Virus record (IMG/VR): IMGVR_UViG_3300007640_000198
Coordinates: 1 to 26,089 of that record
Strand: one strand, 5' to 3'
DNA: 26,089 bases
Source of the DNA: a virus
Made by a program: the position numbers and the translations under genes. The notes under the pieces were generated by a model, which saw only the letters and a list, made by a program, of their open reading frames with translations, had not been told where the DNA came from and did no database searches. How positions within the stretch are numbered: the first letter of the stretch is position 1; the number at the start of each line of letters is the position of its first letter. This document shows positions 2 through 26,089 of this stretch, in pieces.

Positions 2-541
2 GGGGATAAAGAAGAGGACATGGAAGATGCCGCTGAAGGCATGAGTGAAGGTATCGACTTCAAAGGTGCTAAGCGTATTGATGACGCTCGTGCCAAGAAG
101 CAAGCTGAGAAGGACAAGAAGAACCCTTCAGGTAAGGACTACCGTCTTGCGCTGCGTAAGTTCCGCCCAGGTGCTTCCAACGAAGAGCGTGCGGAAGGAC
201 ACCGCGACAACATGCGCGAGAAGGGCACCAGCCCCATCAAGAACGGTAAAAAGATGTTCGAAGATGCTTACGCTGCTGTTTATGCAAGGGAAGAGATTGA
301 GCATCTCGAAGAGCGTCTCGATGACATGCCTGCTGGTGATGTAGGTCACGAGATCCACAAGAAGGCTATGAAGGCTAACCAGTCTGCTATTGACGCTGTC
401 AATAAGGACCAGAAAGCTTCTGACAAGAAACATCGCAACAGCACCAAATCCCTCAAGAAGGAAGCTCTGGAAGCAACTGGTCTCTTCACTTCTGAGGAAA
501 TCGAACACATCGGTGAGGTACTTGGCCTGGGAAAGAACTGA
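2..541 (+). CDS. Charged Lys/Glu-rich protein of unknown function, 5'-partial; upstream frame of a probable -1 frameshift pair
   Basis: The frame is open from the first bases of the window, and the acidic stretch before the first ATG (position 20) looks like coding sequence, so the true start is probably upstream. If ATG 20 were the start the product would be 173 residues. The protein is very rich in Lys, Glu, Asp and Ala, predicted soluble and largely helical. It has no signal peptide or membrane segment. Two motifs recur in the next frame: LKKEALEATGLF followed by SEEIE near the C-terminus, and an AYxxxY segment (EDAYAAVYAREEIE) in the middle. Such repeats resemble those I recall in cyanophage virion structural proteins, but I cannot assign a role. 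The frame stops at TGA 539-541, four bases after the heptamer GGGAAAG in slippery register, so this may be the short product of a gene that also makes a -1 fusion. Coding status is well supported by composition and by the shared repeat. Confidence 0.8.
   Translation, partial: GDKEEDMEDAAEGMSEGIDFKGAKRIDDARAKKQAEKDKKNPSGKDYRLALRKFRPGASNEERAEGHRDNMREKGTSPIKNGKKMFEDAYAAVYAREEIEHLEERLDDMPAGDVGHEIHKKAMKANQSAIDAVNKDQKASDKKHRNSTKSLKKEALEATGLFTSEEIEHIGEVLGLGKN
451..487 (+). repeat. 37-base direct repeat, second copy at 1215-1251
   Basis: The two copies differ at only two of 37 bases. Each encodes the motif LKKEALEATG followed by an aromatic/acidic SEEIE-like tail, once near the end of the upstream frame and once inside the downstream frame. 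Sharing the motif across the two frames supports the idea that they form one modular protein. Confidence 0.85.
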
Positions 542-562
542 CCTCCAGTGAAGAGCTGGAGG
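515..562 (+). promoter_or_regulatory. Probable programmed -1 ribosomal frameshift signal (GGGAAAG heptamer with stimulators)
   Basis: Seen directly: the heptamer GGGAAAG at 529-535 is read G_GGA_AAG in the frame of the upstream gene, the X_XXY_YYZ register. The zero frame stops at TGA 539-541. A six-base spacer (536-541) is followed by a perfect 7-bp GC-rich inverted repeat, CCTCCAG 542-548 and CTGGAGG 556-562, with a 7-base loop. An anti-SD-like GAGGT lies at 515-519, nine bases before the heptamer. The -1 frame is open from 517 through the next gene to 1476. Known: phage lambda uses the same GGGAAAG heptamer for its G/GT tail proteins, and dnaX uses the arrangement SD, heptamer, hairpin. 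Inferred: slippage fuses the two frames through GLGK-ELTSSEELEE. The alternative is a sequencing indel. Confidence 0.75.
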
Positions 563-591
563 AAGGCATTGGAGCAATTGCCGCGGCCGGT

Positions 592-1476
592 ATGAAGGCC
601 CTCGGTAGTGCTGCTAAAGCAGGTTCTAAGGTTGCTGGAAACGCAGTTAAGTCTGGTGCTAAGGTTCTCGCCAAGAAAGGTGTAGACGCCGCGGCGCACG
701 CAGCCAAGAGCGCTCTTGACGGTGATGCCGAAAAGGAAGAAGTTGAAGAGGGTTACAAGCCCACCAACTTTGAAAAGAATGAGCGCCAAGCTTATAAGCA
801 CCGCAAAGATGAAGAGGATGCTGTCCGTAAGGGTGACGAAGAAGGTGCCAATAAGCATATGAAGCGTCGTGTTGCTCTGGGTTCACCACTCGCTAAGCGT
901 ACCGAACTTATCAACAAAGGTAAGGGTCCCGCTAACGAAATGACTCGTAAGGCTCGTTCTAAGTCCATGAAGGAAGCTTATTCCGACATGTACATGGAAG
1001 TGTACAAGGGTAAGCACGGTCAGTCCGATAAAGAGTACATGGATTCGCGTTCTGACGCTGGTAAGCGAATCAGTGGCGACTCTAAGGAAGGTCCTGCTTC
1101 CTACTCCACTCGTATTCATAAGAACTCACCTCCCACACTTCCTGGTGAGAAGCCTAAGAATGTTCCTGGCCTGAGTAAAGGTGAGAAAGCAGAGTTGGCG
1201 ATGCGTAAATCCAACCTCAAGAAGGAAGCCCTGGAAGCAACTGGTTTCTTCTCAGAGGAAGAAATCGAAGCACTCCAAGAGAAGATGTCCGCTATGGACA
1301 TTGTGAGGAAGCAGGTCGAGGACAAGTACGGTAAAGGTGCTATCCACGACCCCAACGCACCCAAGAAGGAAGTTTCTCCTGAAGAGAAGAAGCGCCGCGC
1401 TGCTGAAGAAGCAAAGAACCGCGCAGCTCGCAAGAAGGAAGCAGGATACGATCCCATGCACTCCCCCCGCGACTGA
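592..1476 (+). CDS. Lys/Ala-rich protein of unknown function; downstream (-1) frame of a probable frameshift product
   Basis: 294 residues if started at ATG 592. The frame is open from 517, with no ATG, GTG or TTG before 592, and no well-spaced Shine-Dalgarno precedes ATG 592. An ATT at 568 has GGAGG five bases upstream, but that GGAGG lies inside the 542-562 hairpin. Entry by -1 slippage at 529-535 is therefore attractive and would add 313 residues to the upstream protein. Residues 1-45 are an Ala/Gly/Lys-rich helix (repeating AAKAG, AVKSGAK and AAHAAKS elements) that could be amphipathic. A long highly charged region follows, with SMKEAYSDMY around residue 123 and a second LKKEALEATGFF/SEEEIE repeat around residues 208-225. 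The basic tail ends in a Lys/Arg/Ala-rich helix. It looks like a virion internal or structural protein. I cannot name a family. A strong terminator lies directly downstream. Confidence 0.8.
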   Translation: MKALGSAAKAGSKVAGNAVKSGAKVLAKKGVDAAAHAAKSALDGDAEKEEVEEGYKPTNFEKNERQAYKHRKDEEDAVRKGDEEGANKHMKRRVALGSPLAKRTELINKGKGPANEMTRKARSKSMKEAYSDMYMEVYKGKHGQSDKEYMDSRSDAGKRISGDSKEGPASYSTRIHKNSPPTLPGEKPKNVPGLSKGEKAELAMRKSNLKKEALEATGFFSEEEIEALQEKMSAMDIVRKQVEDKYGKGAIHDPNAPKKEVSPEEKKRRAAEEAKNRAARKKEAGYDPMHSPRD

Positions 1477-1483
1477 TGACTAA

Positions 1484-1506
1484 GGGACCCTACGGGGTCC
1501 TTTTTT
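1484..1506 (+). terminator. Rho-independent terminator after the frameshift gene pair
   Basis: GGACCC (1485-1490) pairs with GGGTCC (1495-1500) around the tetraloop TACG closed by C-G, a stable UNCG-type loop. A flanking G-T pair and six T bases (1501-1506) follow. It begins eight bases after the stop codon, a classical intrinsic terminator. Confidence 0.9.
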
Positions 1507-20200: not shown

Positions 20201-21735
20201 TGGGTGAGTTTGAGATCGGTGCGAACGGAAAAGTCACAAACAAGCGTGTAACTAAACAGCCTACACTTGGTGCACTGTTCAAGTCGCAAAACGGTGGCCT
20301 TTGGACGGAAGACCAGACACAGGACATGGCTTTCCGAATTTACTGTGCAAACTTCAAGACTAACACGGTCGCGCAGGTCGAGTTACAAAACGAACCACTT
20401 GATGTTCGTGTCCTCCTAACCGATCCAATTGAAACCAACAATGACGGTTCAGACACCACTTCCTTCGCCTTCGGAGACAACCCAAAGATCGTCAAGGTTC
20501 ATCACCACATGCACGGGCTTGCACCTGGCGACTACGTAGCCATCGGTGGTGTTGTAAACAACCCAGGTGGAATTCCAAACGAGGAACTCAACACACTCCA
20601 CACGGTTATTGCCTCCGACATGGAAGCTTTCACCTTCGAAGTGACCACCTCCGCCACCTCATCCGGGCGTGACGGTGGATCCTCAGTCAGCTGCTCTTAC
20701 AACCGACCCTTCGAAGTCATAAACGTGACATCTGGTGTTATGGACTTCACCACAACTAACGTTGTTGCTGGTGTTAAGTCTATCGCCCACGCAGGAACTA
20801 CCGGCAGCAACTCCGGGGGTCAGTACAACCAAGACGGTGGGTTTAACATCAAACTGACCGAGAACTTCTATTACAGCAACTCTCGTCAGATTGCAAACTA
20901 CCTCAACGAGGCTAAGTATTTGGCCAGAACCAACGGAAGGAGCCTGAGGACCTACATCAACCTCAGCACCGCAAACAACCTAGTTTCCCCTGTCATCGAC
21001 TACACAAGGACTAAGGGAACGATTGTTAGGAACATGATCGACAACCCCAACTCGGTCGATTCGATCTTCTCACCTAACAACTTCACTATCACCTTCGACG
21101 GAGACATCACAGCTTCAGCACTGACCGTCGGTGACCCACTCGAGTTCACCGAGGGTGGTACTAACTACTCAGCAAACATCACCAAGATCAACTACAACAC
21201 AGGAAAGATCACCTACTCTGGCCAATACGCCTCCATGATCAACGAGTCAACGACCTTCACCAACGCCACACTGGCTGCCCTGGATGTTGAAGACATCACC
21301 GAAACTGAGGGTGGTGGTTACTACCCAGAAACCAGCAACTCTGGTTCCGCCTGGGCGAAGTGGATCTCCAGACTGTTTGAGTTTGAAAACGAGTGCGATG
21401 GAATTGAGGTCCGAATGGCAGCAGTCTTCTACGACACCAACGACATCAAACTCTACTACAAACCAAGAAACACTGGTTTCGACGGAGACTTCGGTGACGT
21501 GGAGTGGGTGCCCTTCAACGGAAACGGACTTCCTGACGGTGTCGGCAACATCAAAGCAAGGTCGTCCAACAATGTTGACCCCAACTCAATGAGCCCCAAA
21601 GCTTGGACTTCGCTGACCTGGACAGTTCAAGACATTGAGAAGTTTGACGGACTCTCAGTGAAAATTGTTATGACTGCCAACAACCCAGCAAAGGCACCTC
21701 TGATCGACGACATCCAAATCGTCTGCTCAGAATAA
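14266..21735 (+). CDS. Giant DUF4815-type virion structural protein (baseplate/tail-fibre associated)
   Basis: 2489 residues. The N-terminus, NVSPYYDDFDPNKNYYRVLY then AGYPIQARELTTQQSILQDQ (about 8-48), is the hallmark of DUF4815 proteins of T4-like cyanophages. Further conserved-looking landmarks are IYLRDCVDFRPVVN near 1105, RWINVQPYSVFTYEGELRLF near 1364, NLKPNTTYYAFFDGVNVTDW near 1476, NRWDPVAQTFSV near 1687 and LGALFKSQNGGLWTEDQTQD near 2004. Around 1643-1680 is a low-complexity NVT/EVT stretch containing a perfect 12-residue tandem duplication. Residues about 1852-1924 hold two GGxGY repeats (SGYTNATV, GSGYTSIPTATV). There is no signal peptide or catalytic motif. It sits where T4 has genes 9 and 10 (fibre socket and baseplate pin), so a fibre-attachment or peripheral baseplate role is reasonable, but orthology to either is not shown. 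Confidence 0.85.
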   Translation: MASEKNLNVSPYYDDFDPNKNYYRVLYKAGYPIQARELTTQQSILQDQVEKLASRLLAEGDNVVPGEFSLISPSPYVRLSTFTNGAEVEDFVGYTITGATSGVVATVIFAVAASTTDDSILFVSYDDSGTDEESTTFLEGEILESSNPNAITGTVGVDGVSLPVDVPPIGEGALFTVGEGSYYINGTIVRNDDQTIVASKYDTRFSAKCGFVVTETFVTSDQDPSLLDNSQGSSNFAAPGADRLKITLTLATRDIDDETDNNFVVLAEVVQGNILRTPGNTVKWDWLYEILARRTYDESGDYIVTDFATNLLEYHNDDDEDQVGLFDADDDGLYPAVPGSEDQTPLTYDEADSKYVVAVDPGKAYVKGYEIDLTNLSYMYGTKARSTKFRPNTLAAITEGFNLTLSNVYGTPDFQNISGVGSSVAFNDVVLYRDFGDGFVGDSASNGRPLNRGNAPWRTYHILADGNIGSAPTGYTEVYKEGRGCVVNTSSTIRRGDSIGNARVLVAHEITPKPAGVIRPRYMLPEDRVNLGDGFFGYNSTFKLGVMQGVYFTEIALSNVKNGGTEWVAGELVEGETSGATGVVEVGSTSTTLILSNVVGSFKPGEKVTQGNKVSEILLNDDVSSLVFINRGTNNNTYDLSNETSLKFKALGATKTLTFSAGDFTKTSYGIFLTNSGRRKLRDFPVAADTTKGGIIYTTVETSPSGVDGYCLFRRGIVNNTLGLAKSFYSPLADTNDFSADISAETNEDSNVIDVANGALFRGQANSTTLVCNNYTGDASKQLLPGDIISFVDDLGSDITSVVLCATKPVGYGANKTKSRIILTVPLPANVSNATVQRVRSKTRGNQRQTLVYQLPAETISTLETNSEETSISYQILREFIVNVQAGASSITLTTTANNETFIDSTSRTSVAVAQNLSDTTDAGQFEGRALTVNSVDVSQDNGKKVILNLGQTLTDSLKIKILIPVFVSDAIAKRKKAIVDHEIELGPDNGTNGDVISLGLADVYEVTAITKDGRNYIDNYTFDNGQRDNIYDISRLVLKPGRRRVGGTVTVTCSYFEHTGTGDFFSVNSYTDEGGVNYENIPTYTSKNILRRETTYSKDKNRNTIYLRDCVDFRPVVNTIGSDATVLARVVDGADEQNAMSFKDSTNGGNAFAPRMPLINTQFICDLQYYQARYDSLFLQSDGALALISGEAADDPQPAKDMSSGIRLYDYFLPPYTFSLSDIYTKKFNYKRYRMQDIAAIDRQVQNLTELVTLSLLEQDAINMNVRDAATGLDRFKNGIVVDNFSNHANGETKLTQYRCAIDPENDILRAPYFIDQLELEDVVQTNKGRSDKNYALNNGIITLDYTPARLINQPKATRWINVQPYSVFTYEGELRLFPDIDTFSDQNRLPDLRIEDNSLFNAMVDQTQTMNGGGMGTVWGRWSESGQTRSRTQTQTTINVTSSRMERTSYGDRVVDVQVAEKMRTIPVRFTASNLKPNTTYYAFFDGVNVTDWCIRGRLSTNFSDGVRRYTGADNTSSKFSDALVSDGVGRIQGYFLVPSGRAPKGDSGLNVTKRFWGVQYRTSGTSRSFSTGTRTLRLTDNVQNPSDLELVGGICETNFTSSGVISDVQETIVSTRIPEFSTSTRITDTETQQIPQPVINNITNVTNEITNVTNVTEVTEVTNVTNVTEVTEVTNNIVRQQEPNRWDPVAQTFSVSSKTAPEGVFLTSVDVFFRTIDKKAPCEVYLVTTDGQVPTEIILPHSHVTKTAKTTIKVRCTKLVGSTTTLRSGTRVKGAKSGCVGTLSSAVVFSSAGTNASTNVNNSTYNLVIGSYEGAQGFEPGEQIIPLVSPRLADKFYIAGDTYRLTRADIVKLGSGYTNATVTFSAPQLPGGTRATGICKVADGRVYEVEVTNPGSGYTSIPTATVSGNGKGATITCRADFRDGRAVRMGCTASNDATVATRFEFKAPVFIAPDTYYAFVVKSATSLDYTVWTAKMGEFEIGANGKVTNKRVTKQPTLGALFKSQNGGLWTEDQTQDMAFRIYCANFKTNTVAQVELQNEPLDVRVLLTDPIETNNDGSDTTSFAFGDNPKIVKVHHHMHGLAPGDYVAIGGVVNNPGGIPNEELNTLHTVIASDMEAFTFEVTTSATSSGRDGGSSVSCSYNRPFEVINVTSGVMDFTTTNVVAGVKSIAHAGTTGSNSGGQYNQDGGFNIKLTENFYYSNSRQIANYLNEAKYLARTNGRSLRTYINLSTANNLVSPVIDYTRTKGTIVRNMIDNPNSVDSIFSPNNFTITFDGDITASALTVGDPLEFTEGGTNYSANITKINYNTGKITYSGQYASMINESTTFTNATLAALDVEDITETEGGGYYPETSNSGSAWAKWISRLFEFENECDGIEVRMAAVFYDTNDIKLYYKPRNTGFDGDFGDVEWVPFNGNGLPDGVGNIKARSSNNVDPNSMSPKAWTSLTWTVQDIEKFDGLSVKIVMTANNPAKAPLIDDIQIVCSE
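19222..19293 (+). repeat. Perfect 36-base tandem duplication (two units) in the DUF4815 gene
   Basis: Units 19222-19257 and 19258-19293 are identical base for base, each encoding TNVTNVTEVTEV. The flanking codons (NNITNVTNEI before, TNN after) extend the same three-residue rhythm. The period is consistent with a beta-solenoid or trimeric shaft linker. Exact identity at synonymous positions indicates recent expansion. Confidence 0.9.
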
Positions 21736-24087: not shown

Positions 24088-24099
24088 TGTAAATGTTTT

Positions 24100-24125
24100 T
24101 AGGTCAAATAAATAACATTGACCTA
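24100..24125 (+). promoter_or_regulatory. Inverted repeat enclosing a late promoter (AATAAATA)
   Basis: TAGGTCAA (24100-24107) and TTGACCTA (24118-24125) are perfect complements with the ten-base loop ATAAATAACA, so the T4-type late -10 AATAAATA (24107-24114) lies in the loop, as at gene 8. RNA started about six bases after the element would lack the left arm. No T-run follows the stem. The long fibre gene starts 15 bases after the right arm. Confidence 0.75.
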
Positions 24126-24139
24126 GACCAATTACCCAA

Positions 24140-26089
24140 GTGTCTTATAACATTTTCCCCAGTGGAAATAACAGGAAGATCGTCATCCCTTCCGGCCAAC
24201 CAAACAATAACATTTTCCCCAGTGGCAATAACGGGGAGATCGTCATCCCTTCCGGCCAACCAAACAATAACATAATCTCAAACACACAGGCCGGAACTGA
24301 GCCTTTCAACGTCTTTATCGTCTCCGAAACACAACCAACCGCTCGTGATAATGGTGGGGTTCTTGTTGAGGGTGACGTTTGGTGGAACACCACCTTAGAG
24401 AAATCTTATTACTGGGTCAGTGACACTTGGGAACTGAGCACCGGTGCCGATGGTGCAATTGCACCAGGGTCAAACATCAGCCTCTTAACCAACGACGTTG
24501 GTTATCTTTCTGGTGCGAGTTCAATTGGTGATTTGGGTGACGTCGACACAACTGGAGTTGTCGATGGCTCTGTTCTCGTTTGGGGTGGTTCTTCTTGGGT
24601 AATTGGTAACCGCACCGACGTCGAGAGCATTGGAAATCTGTCTGACGTAACCATCACAACAGTGGAAGAGGGTGATCTTCTGCGTTATGACGGTTCCGAG
24701 TGGGTCAACACTGAACTGGTAATTGCAGACATCCCAGATCTCTCTTCCGTTTATGCATCAGCGGCGCAGGGTGCTCTTGCCGACACCTCCCTGCAGGGTT
24801 CTGACATTGGCACACTTGTCCAACCTTACAATAACCACACAGTCGTTGACTCTCTTTATGTAAGGACTGACAATAACTTCACCGACGATGACCACAACAA
24901 ACTGGATGGAATTGAAGAGGGAGCGGAGGTCAACGTCAACGCCGACTGGAACTCCGTCTCTGGCGACTCGGAAATTCTGAATAAGCCAGTTCTCGGAACT
25001 GCGGCCTTTGAGGACACAACTGCCTTTGCGACACCAGCACAAGGTGCTCTGGCAGACACCTCACTCCAACCAGAAGACATTGGAGTTAGCGTTCAAGCTT
25101 TCAACACAAACACAGTCCTGGACACCAATTATGTCCACACCGATAACAACTTCACCGACGCAGAGAAAGCCAAGCTTGCTGGAGTCCAAGACGGCGCTGA
25201 AGTGAATGTCAATGCCGACTGGAACGCCACCTCAGGCGACGCTCTTATCCTCAACAAGCCCCTTCTTGGCACCGCAGCATCCCAAGACACCACAGACTTC
25301 GCAACGGCCACACAGGGCCTCCTGGCTGACTCTGCTGTCCAACCTGGTGATGGTCTGAGTGAACTAACCAACGACGCCGGTTACCTGACCAACATCACGA
25401 ACCAACTTTTGGGGGAGCTTAGTGATGTAACCTTTAGTGGTCTGGCAAATGGTCAAGTTGTAACTTACGATGGTGCTGGTTGGGTTAACCAAGATCTCCC
25501 CAGTGTCGATCTGTCTTCATCTTCAATTGACAGTCTGGAAGATGTTAACACCTCAGGGACAGTTCTCGTTGATGGAATGGTCCTCACTTGGGACGACTTG
25601 GACCAAGAGTGGATTCCTGGTTTGGTTGATGTAACCATCCCCGTAACGAGTGTCAATGCTCAAACTGGTGATGTTGTCCTAAATGCCGATGACATCGACG
25701 ACACCACCACAACCAATAAGTTCGCAACGGCAGCCCAGTTGGCAGCTGTCGACAGCTCTTTACAACCAGTCGATGTTGGTGTGACTGTTCAGGCTTATGA
25801 CGCTGGGACAGTAATCGATCCCACTTACGTCCACACCGATAACAACTTCACCGACGCAGAACAAACCAAGCTCAACGCAATTGAGTCCAATGCGCAAGTG
25901 AATGTCAATGCCGACTGGAACGCCACCTCAGGTGACGCTCTTATCCTCAACAAGCCTCTTCTTGGCACCGCAGCATCCCAAGACACCACATCCTACGCAA
26001 CGGCCGCACAGGGCCTCCTGGCTGACTCTGCTGTCCAACCTGGTGATGGTCTGAGTGAACTAACCAACGACGCCGGTTACCTGACCAAC
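24140..26089 (+). CDS. Long repetitive tail-fibre protein, 3'-partial
   Basis: The frame is open from 24122 (in-frame stop at 24119-24121) to the window end: 650 codons with no stop. GTG 24140 is the first plausible start (MSYNIFPSGNN). There is no ATG and no Shine-Dalgarno, and the leader from the promoter at 24107-24114 would be about 20 bases. Two 20-residue tandem repeats come first, then GDVWWNTTLEKSYYWVSD near residue 78, then alternating modules: LSDV...G..L.[YW]DG..WV (four variants); TDNNFTD.E..KL..I/V..A and VNVNADWN.TSGDA.ILNKP (three copies near residues 240, 335 and 567); and LTND[AV]GYL (three copies). These modules are characteristic of long phage fibres of marine myoviruses. 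The receptor-binding tip and any chaperone domain lie beyond the window. Confidence 0.87.
   Translation, partial: MSYNIFPSGNNRKIVIPSGQPNNNIFPSGNNGEIVIPSGQPNNNIISNTQAGTEPFNVFIVSETQPTARDNGGVLVEGDVWWNTTLEKSYYWVSDTWELSTGADGAIAPGSNISLLTNDVGYLSGASSIGDLGDVDTTGVVDGSVLVWGGSSWVIGNRTDVESIGNLSDVTITTVEEGDLLRYDGSEWVNTELVIADIPDLSSVYASAAQGALADTSLQGSDIGTLVQPYNNHTVVDSLYVRTDNNFTDDDHNKLDGIEEGAEVNVNADWNSVSGDSEILNKPVLGTAAFEDTTAFATPAQGALADTSLQPEDIGVSVQAFNTNTVLDTNYVHTDNNFTDAEKAKLAGVQDGAEVNVNADWNATSGDALILNKPLLGTAASQDTTDFATATQGLLADSAVQPGDGLSELTNDAGYLTNITNQLLGELSDVTFSGLANGQVVTYDGAGWVNQDLPSVDLSSSSIDSLEDVNTSGTVLVDGMVLTWDDLDQEWIPGLVDVTIPVTSVNAQTGDVVLNADDIDDTTTTNKFATAAQLAAVDSSLQPVDVGVTVQAYDAGTVIDPTYVHTDNNFTDAEQTKLNAIESNAQVNVNADWNATSGDALILNKPLLGTAASQDTTSYATAAQGLLADSAVQPGDGLSELTNDAGYLTN
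24149..24268 (+). repeat. 60-base tandem repeat, two units, at the start of the long fibre gene
   Basis: Units 24149-24208 and 24209-24268 differ at three of 60 bases and encode NIFPSGNN[RG][KE]IVIPSGQPNN. Each 20-residue unit is itself two similar ten-residue halves built on I-P-S-G. A third unit begins (NII) and diverges. Confidence 0.92.
25133..25393 (+). repeat. Long direct repeat in the fibre gene; second copy 25829-26089
   Basis: The two copies are offset by 696 bases (232 codons, in frame). The last 83 bases (25311-25393 and 26007-26089) are identical, and the similarity reaches the window edge, so the true repeat may be longer. A third, more diverged copy of the first part lies near 24858-25050. 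They encode the TDNNFTD to LTNDAGYLTN module. Confidence 0.9.

Follow-up and report, generated by a model that had tools for sequence, protein, structure and literature searches.

In dnaX (tau/gamma), a cellular polymerase gene of E. coli in which frameshifting gives the shorter product, the -1 frameshift signal has three parts, namely a Shine-Dalgarno (SD)-like element about 10 nt upstream, a slippery heptamer (A AAA AAG), and a stem 5-6 nt downstream. In phage T7, gene 10A/10B (major/minor capsid) gives a short and a C-terminally extended form by -1 frameshifting. The G and GT products of phage lambda, one short and one extended, arise by a -1 shift on a G GGA AAG that lies late in the upstream ORF; heptamers of the GGGAAAG type are shift-prone in E. 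coli, and neither of the two products is found in mature virions (PMC5009743). With regard to T4-like phages, a study listed among the references of PMC10885494 (Vladimirov et al. 2022) appears, from its title, to argue against frameshifting in their tail chaperones. Within our incomplete coverage of the literature, we found no other work on recoding in T4-like phages, and no example of frameshifting in a cyanophage.

Here we report a site in a window of 26,089 bases (the whole stretch of DNA that was analysed), which is a virus fragment from a T4-like cyanophage (record IMGVR_UViG_3300007640_000198). It is metagenome-derived with no reads behind the sequence, and its DNA matches belong to Kyanoviridae (e.g., S-N03, MA10, and S-H34). 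Near its left end, two overlapping reading frames precede genes for the baseplate proteins gp25 and gp6 and further tail genes. We consider it very probable that -1 programmed ribosomal frameshifting takes place where these frames join, so that a putative virion protein is made in a short and a long version; this builds on what is observed, i.e., the anatomy of the site, the switch of coding frame, its rarity by chance, and the presence of like cassettes in the same gene family. The locus resembles lambda G/GT in its heptamer, in a shift that comes late in the upstream ORF, and in its short and extended products. It differs in that neither frame matches a tail-chaperone family (so that membership in the G/GT type was not supported), in a far longer extension of about 312 aa, in the presence of SD and stem stimulators, and in the annotation of relatives as virion protein, whereas the lambda products are absent from mature virions. 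It shares the three-part signal with dnaX, although that gene is cellular and is shortened by the shift, and the proposed virion protein in two lengths recalls T7 10A/10B, to which, however, the protein is unrelated; moreover, the cyanophage cassettes lie at borders of shuffled modules and vary from phage to phage. The mechanism is thus already known, and what appears to be new is the place, a cyanophage family with varied cassettes at module borders.

Two other stretches of the window may be mentioned. A small ORF at 2405-2602, whose counterpart in S-CREM2 is annotated as tail assembly chaperone, has no noted frameshift signal. An ORF at 24093-24275 overlaps, in a different frame, the beginning of the gene that follows, and near-identical repeats (TFSPVEITGRSSSLPANQTI / NNIFPSGNNGEIVIPSGQPN) are present in both frames.

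The 0 frame of the junction (positions congruent to 2 mod 3) is open from the left edge to the TGA and would encode the short product; because the gene is truncated at the left end of the window, the N-terminus and length of this form cannot be read. The -1 frame is bounded by stops at 514 and 1474. These bounds and the 0-frame stop confine any switch to a 24-nt overlap (517-541), which contains the heptamer. The initial annotation had proposed a -1 frameshift here from a GAGGT 9 bases upstream of an in-register heptamer, a 6-base spacer with the zero-frame TGA, a perfect GC-rich 7-bp stem, and a -1 frame open across the junction to 1476 with no good start before ATG 592, and direct reading bore out each of these elements (Table 1). 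It had also noted a repeat of 37 bases common to both frames; the repeat exists but extends over 55 nt at 85% identity, and the 37 nt contain 2 mismatches. Thus, a heptamer of the X XXY YYZ type lies in register within the frame overlap, the stem falls within the 5-9 nt expected of bacterial -1 sites, the optional SD-like stimulator expected about 10 nt upstream is present, and the downstream frame is open and coding without a start of its own. The duplex of GAGGT with the anti-SD is worth -7.9 kcal/mol, a value equalled or bettered at 2.7% of codon positions in family genes. RNAfold adds a G-U pair to the stem, and the 45 nt 3' of the heptamer fold with -15.7 kcal/mol (z -2.9, 1/200 shuffles). 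The earliest ATG, GTG, or TTG of the -1 frame is the ATG at 592, which lacks an SD at normal spacing.

Table 1. Location of the features discussed, in window positions unless another sequence is named.
Feature	Location	Strand	Remarks
0-frame ORF	2-541	+	179 aa seen; ends in ...EVLGLGKN and stop; 5' end cut by window edge
Family motif KKEALEATGLFTSEEIE, copy 1	451-505	+	just 5' of cassette
GAGGT, Shine-Dalgarno-like	515-519	+	9 nt 5' of heptamer; sequence
Slippery heptamer G GGA AAG	529-535	+	0-frame register; sequence
-1 frame extension	535-1476	+	about 312 aa past heptamer; frame open from 517
0-frame stop TGA	539-541	+	inside 6-nt spacer AACTGA
Stem-loop CCTCCAG (542-548) / CTGGAGG (556-562)	542-562	+	7 bp, 7-nt loop; 6 nt after heptamer
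Family motif KKEALEATGLFTSEEIE, copy 2	1215-1269	+	in -1 extension; DNA 85% identical to copy 1
Intrinsic-terminator-like stem + T6	1484-1506	+	3' of -1 frame stop; sequence
AAAAAAG cassettes, covarying pair	L016 3444-3492; L180 4228-4273		relatives of window gene
AAAAAAG-TAG with good SD and long stem	L165 6046-6122		metagenome contig
S-BM3 site	L184 3019-5303 (OQ319121.1 63340-65624)		SBM3_00120 and SBM3_00119 in the annotation

When codons were scored with models trained on genes of the family and of the window, the 0 frame was preferred as far as position 535, and the -1 frame took over at 538. In the stretch ahead of the earliest ATG (538-591), the -1 frame gains +5 to +9 bits, whereas the remaining frames lie at -15 to -26. 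The score therefore switches already at the junction, ahead of ATG 592, suggesting that the two frames are read as one protein with the switch inside the overlap, as the frameshift reading of the initial annotation had implied. Against continuous relatives, the junction can be aligned in a single frame (GLFTEEEINAI-LEADEQFDEAM) in which the slip segment forms about 9 inserted residues, although this alignment is weak.

The products of both frames are members of a Lys/Glu-rich protein family of mosaic make-up in T4-like cyanophages (Kyanoviridae); it comprises phrog_1418 and related PHROGs, and its modules are shuffled among phages. The match to phrog_1418 has an E value of 6e-12, and membership is supported by modules (YKGKHGQSDKEYMDSRS..SGDSK, EATGLFTSEEIE, and DMPAGDVGHEIHKKAMKAN) shared with S-N03, ME01, S-H34, and IMG/VR relatives; the -1 extension is homologous to proteins of these three phages. 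Since Pfam gives no match to the family and all its PHROG matches are of unknown function, the description as a T4-like structural gene given earlier is an inference; relatives of the gene do carry the annotation virion or structural protein, and on these annotations alone its product is probably a virion protein. Family members in isolates are mostly one continuous frame, including those of S-N03 (635 aa), ME01 (577 aa), S-H34, S-RIM2, RN05-S, and others, and S-N03 has a terminator similar to that of the window 3' of its single ORF. Relatives with one continuous frame had been named in advance as a finding that would refute the frameshift. Most relatives are indeed of this kind, yet they do not refute it, because cassettes of the same design are present at frame breaks elsewhere in the family, including one in the isolate S-BM3 and one covarying pair. 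Searches by DNA pattern, junction peptide, profile, and neighbouring genes, which covered viral contigs and one scan of genome contigs, did not identify any relative spanning the window junction, and records very near the window may be left out of the searched set; conservation of the exact cassette has thus not been established. The closest contig (L014) is 94% identical over the shared parts and continuous, and starts downstream of the junction. An unannotated match in S-B43 was rejected as a frame break, as the frame is open and merely lacks annotation; this open frame (L018 2327-3513) belongs to the same mosaic family, and the equivalent stretch of S-H68 is also unannotated.

By fetching 80 further family loci (about 300 further IMG/VR family loci were left out) and scanning each family ORF for a -1 frame past its stop, we found that most continuations are ordinary ATGA overlaps. 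S-RIM2, ACG-2014a/d, and many IMG/VR family genes were rejected as cassettes for this reason, having ATGA-type overlaps with a start codon. Continuations that lack a start and score as coding were detected in the window, L016 (the same contig as L114), L165, and L180, and in each of them the last base of a strong heptamer lies 3-6 nt ahead of the stop codon's end; L152 has a start-less continuation as well, but without a coding score (-0.78). Together with S-BM3, the three metagenome contigs share one design, in which AAAAAAG, the heptamer of dnaX, lies at the stop, the -1 frame is open and start-less, and a strong stem is present.

In L016 and L180, the heptamer is followed after 5 nt by a stem of 7 bp, a 1x1 internal loop, and 5 bp, and all 12 pairs are kept between the two, three of them via double compensatory changes and two via single changes. 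This count comes from a hand alignment fitted to the stem; no covariance model is available because MAFFT placed the loop gap wrongly in the two-sequence alignment. Fold z-scores are -3.6 (L016) and -5.4 (L180), and neither cassette has a good SD. The -1 frames of the pair are homologous directly after the heptamer, and a stretch before their first shared start codon (AKQQDTER) differs by synonymous changes only; L180 has one earlier GTG in the -1 frame, which is not conserved. The L165 cassette is weaker than the others, with a 45-nt fold of -11.1 (13% of background) and a GTG shortly after the stop, although over 70 nt its fold is strong (z -3.5). A MAFFT alignment of four cassettes was uninformative, since they are non-homologous except for the pairs L016/L180 and L165/S-BM3.

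The S-BM3 site was found by running the family scan on isolates. Its first gene ends in AAGGAG, 8 nt, AAAAAAG, and TAG, the -1 frame remains open for 257 more codons, and the downstream structure is strong (-28.3 kcal/mol, z -6.8, 0/200 shuffles). Over the SD, slip site, and stop, S-BM3 and L165 agree in all 27 nt; most differences in the codons on either side are synonymous. In Sf-FS3, an isolate with the same upstream module, there is no stop at that point and the frame reads on as KEKTKKEEVEVVDEG, a linker that the -1 product of S-BM3 (VVKEG) resembles. SBM3_00120 and SBM3_00119 are therefore probably one frameshifted gene, for which we predict the junction KSAKK-VVKEGDYTDAEK and a short form ending in ...EKSAKK.

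When the fetched DNA (1.34 Mb) was scanned for a heptamer at most 12 nt from a stop with no start, a long -1 continuation, and a strong fold, the scan returned the family cassettes together with L042 and L058. The latter two are G/GT-type tail chaperone genes by PHROGs (phrog_569/680/313), which are known frameshift sites, showing that these criteria detect real sites and return few others. The chaperone pairs (L042 204-922 and L058 3464-4212) have GGGAAAAAAA and GGGAAAC at the overlap. Where the heptamer lay far from the stop, we regarded the match as an overlap within another gene that had arisen by chance.

Several points count against frameshifting, namely the lack of a sequenced relative across the junction, the single continuous frame of most isolates, the metagenomic origin of the fragment without reads, the absence of experimental evidence, and the fact that an extra G (CTG GGG AAA GAA CTG) would make the two frames continuous. 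The break could then be an accident, in which a sequencing or assembly error or a real mutation removed one base from the G run of a once-continuous mosaic ORF, as the continuity of most relatives might suggest. Dropping one G out of GGGG would by itself yield G GGA AAG, so that little weight can rest on the heptamer taken alone, and simulated deletions in homopolymer runs leave a strong heptamer in 3-4% of cases. Among single-base deletions simulated at 21,474 places across the window's other genes, 2.6% left a strong in-register heptamer in the overlap, only one combined it with a stem of at least 7 bp, and none had heptamer, stem, and SD together. Across 45,387 family codons, 24 strong heptamers lie in register; of 5,582 codon positions in family genes, none is followed at 5-8 nt by a GC-rich stem of 7 bp, and SD and fold quality jointly as in the window occur at one of 7,701 family positions. 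These chance figures carry lower weight as the finding was picked from many windows. Nevertheless, loss of a G leaves the stem at 6 nt and the SD unaccounted for, the other long genes of the contig are all intact, and a heptamer lies exactly at the break in four other family members, one of them an isolate, with a covarying stem in two. We therefore regard an accidental break as improbable.

Even less probable, in our judgement, are two adjacent genes with a downstream ORF that is started independently or by termination-reinitiation, at ATG 592 or at the non-standard ATT 568. A strong SD-like GGAGGAAGG (558-566) does lie just 5' of ATT 568, the family ORFs of L005 and L012 end soon after the EATGLF motif, and ATGA-coupled genes follow many family ORFs; such an origin is, however, hard to reconcile with the absence of a standard start before 592 and of a suitably spaced SD at 592, with the coding character of the -1 frame upstream of that ATG, with an extension that has no N-terminal module known from family genes, and with the conservation of the L016/L180 -1 frame 5' of the first shared start codon. 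RNA-polymerase slippage instead of ribosomal frameshifting could also give a long form, and the AAAAAAG runs of the related cassettes could in principle slip, but six As are short for such slippage and the runs of GGGAAAG comprise only 3 bases. Given that conserved stems at 5-7 nt and SD elements are stimulators acting on ribosomes, we give this explanation hardly any credence.

According to the frameshift model, ribosomes in the 0 frame would reach G GGA AAG with the SD-like GAGGT behind them and the stem ahead. Most of them would stop at the TGA and release the short form, while a fraction would slip back by one base to GGG AAA and read on to 1476, adding the extra residues through the junction GK-ELTSSEELEEG.... 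Slippage in the host, its efficiency, and the use of both forms in the particle, including any fixed ratio between them, are inferred without experimental evidence.

At the level of the family, we lean, with clearly less assurance than for the window site itself, towards the view that cassettes of SD, heptamer, and stem recur at module borders, either built independently or shuffled, that phages set the ratio of short to extended protein and gain or lose the extension via the cassette, and that T4-like phages use frameshifting in virion genes other than chaperones. With several cassettes identified, one of them in the cultured phage S-BM3, recoding in cyanophage particle assembly becomes directly testable. 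Genes annotated as separate in such genomes, as in S-BM3, may encode a single protein made in two lengths, and recoding signals can here be seen arising within a rapidly shuffled gene family.
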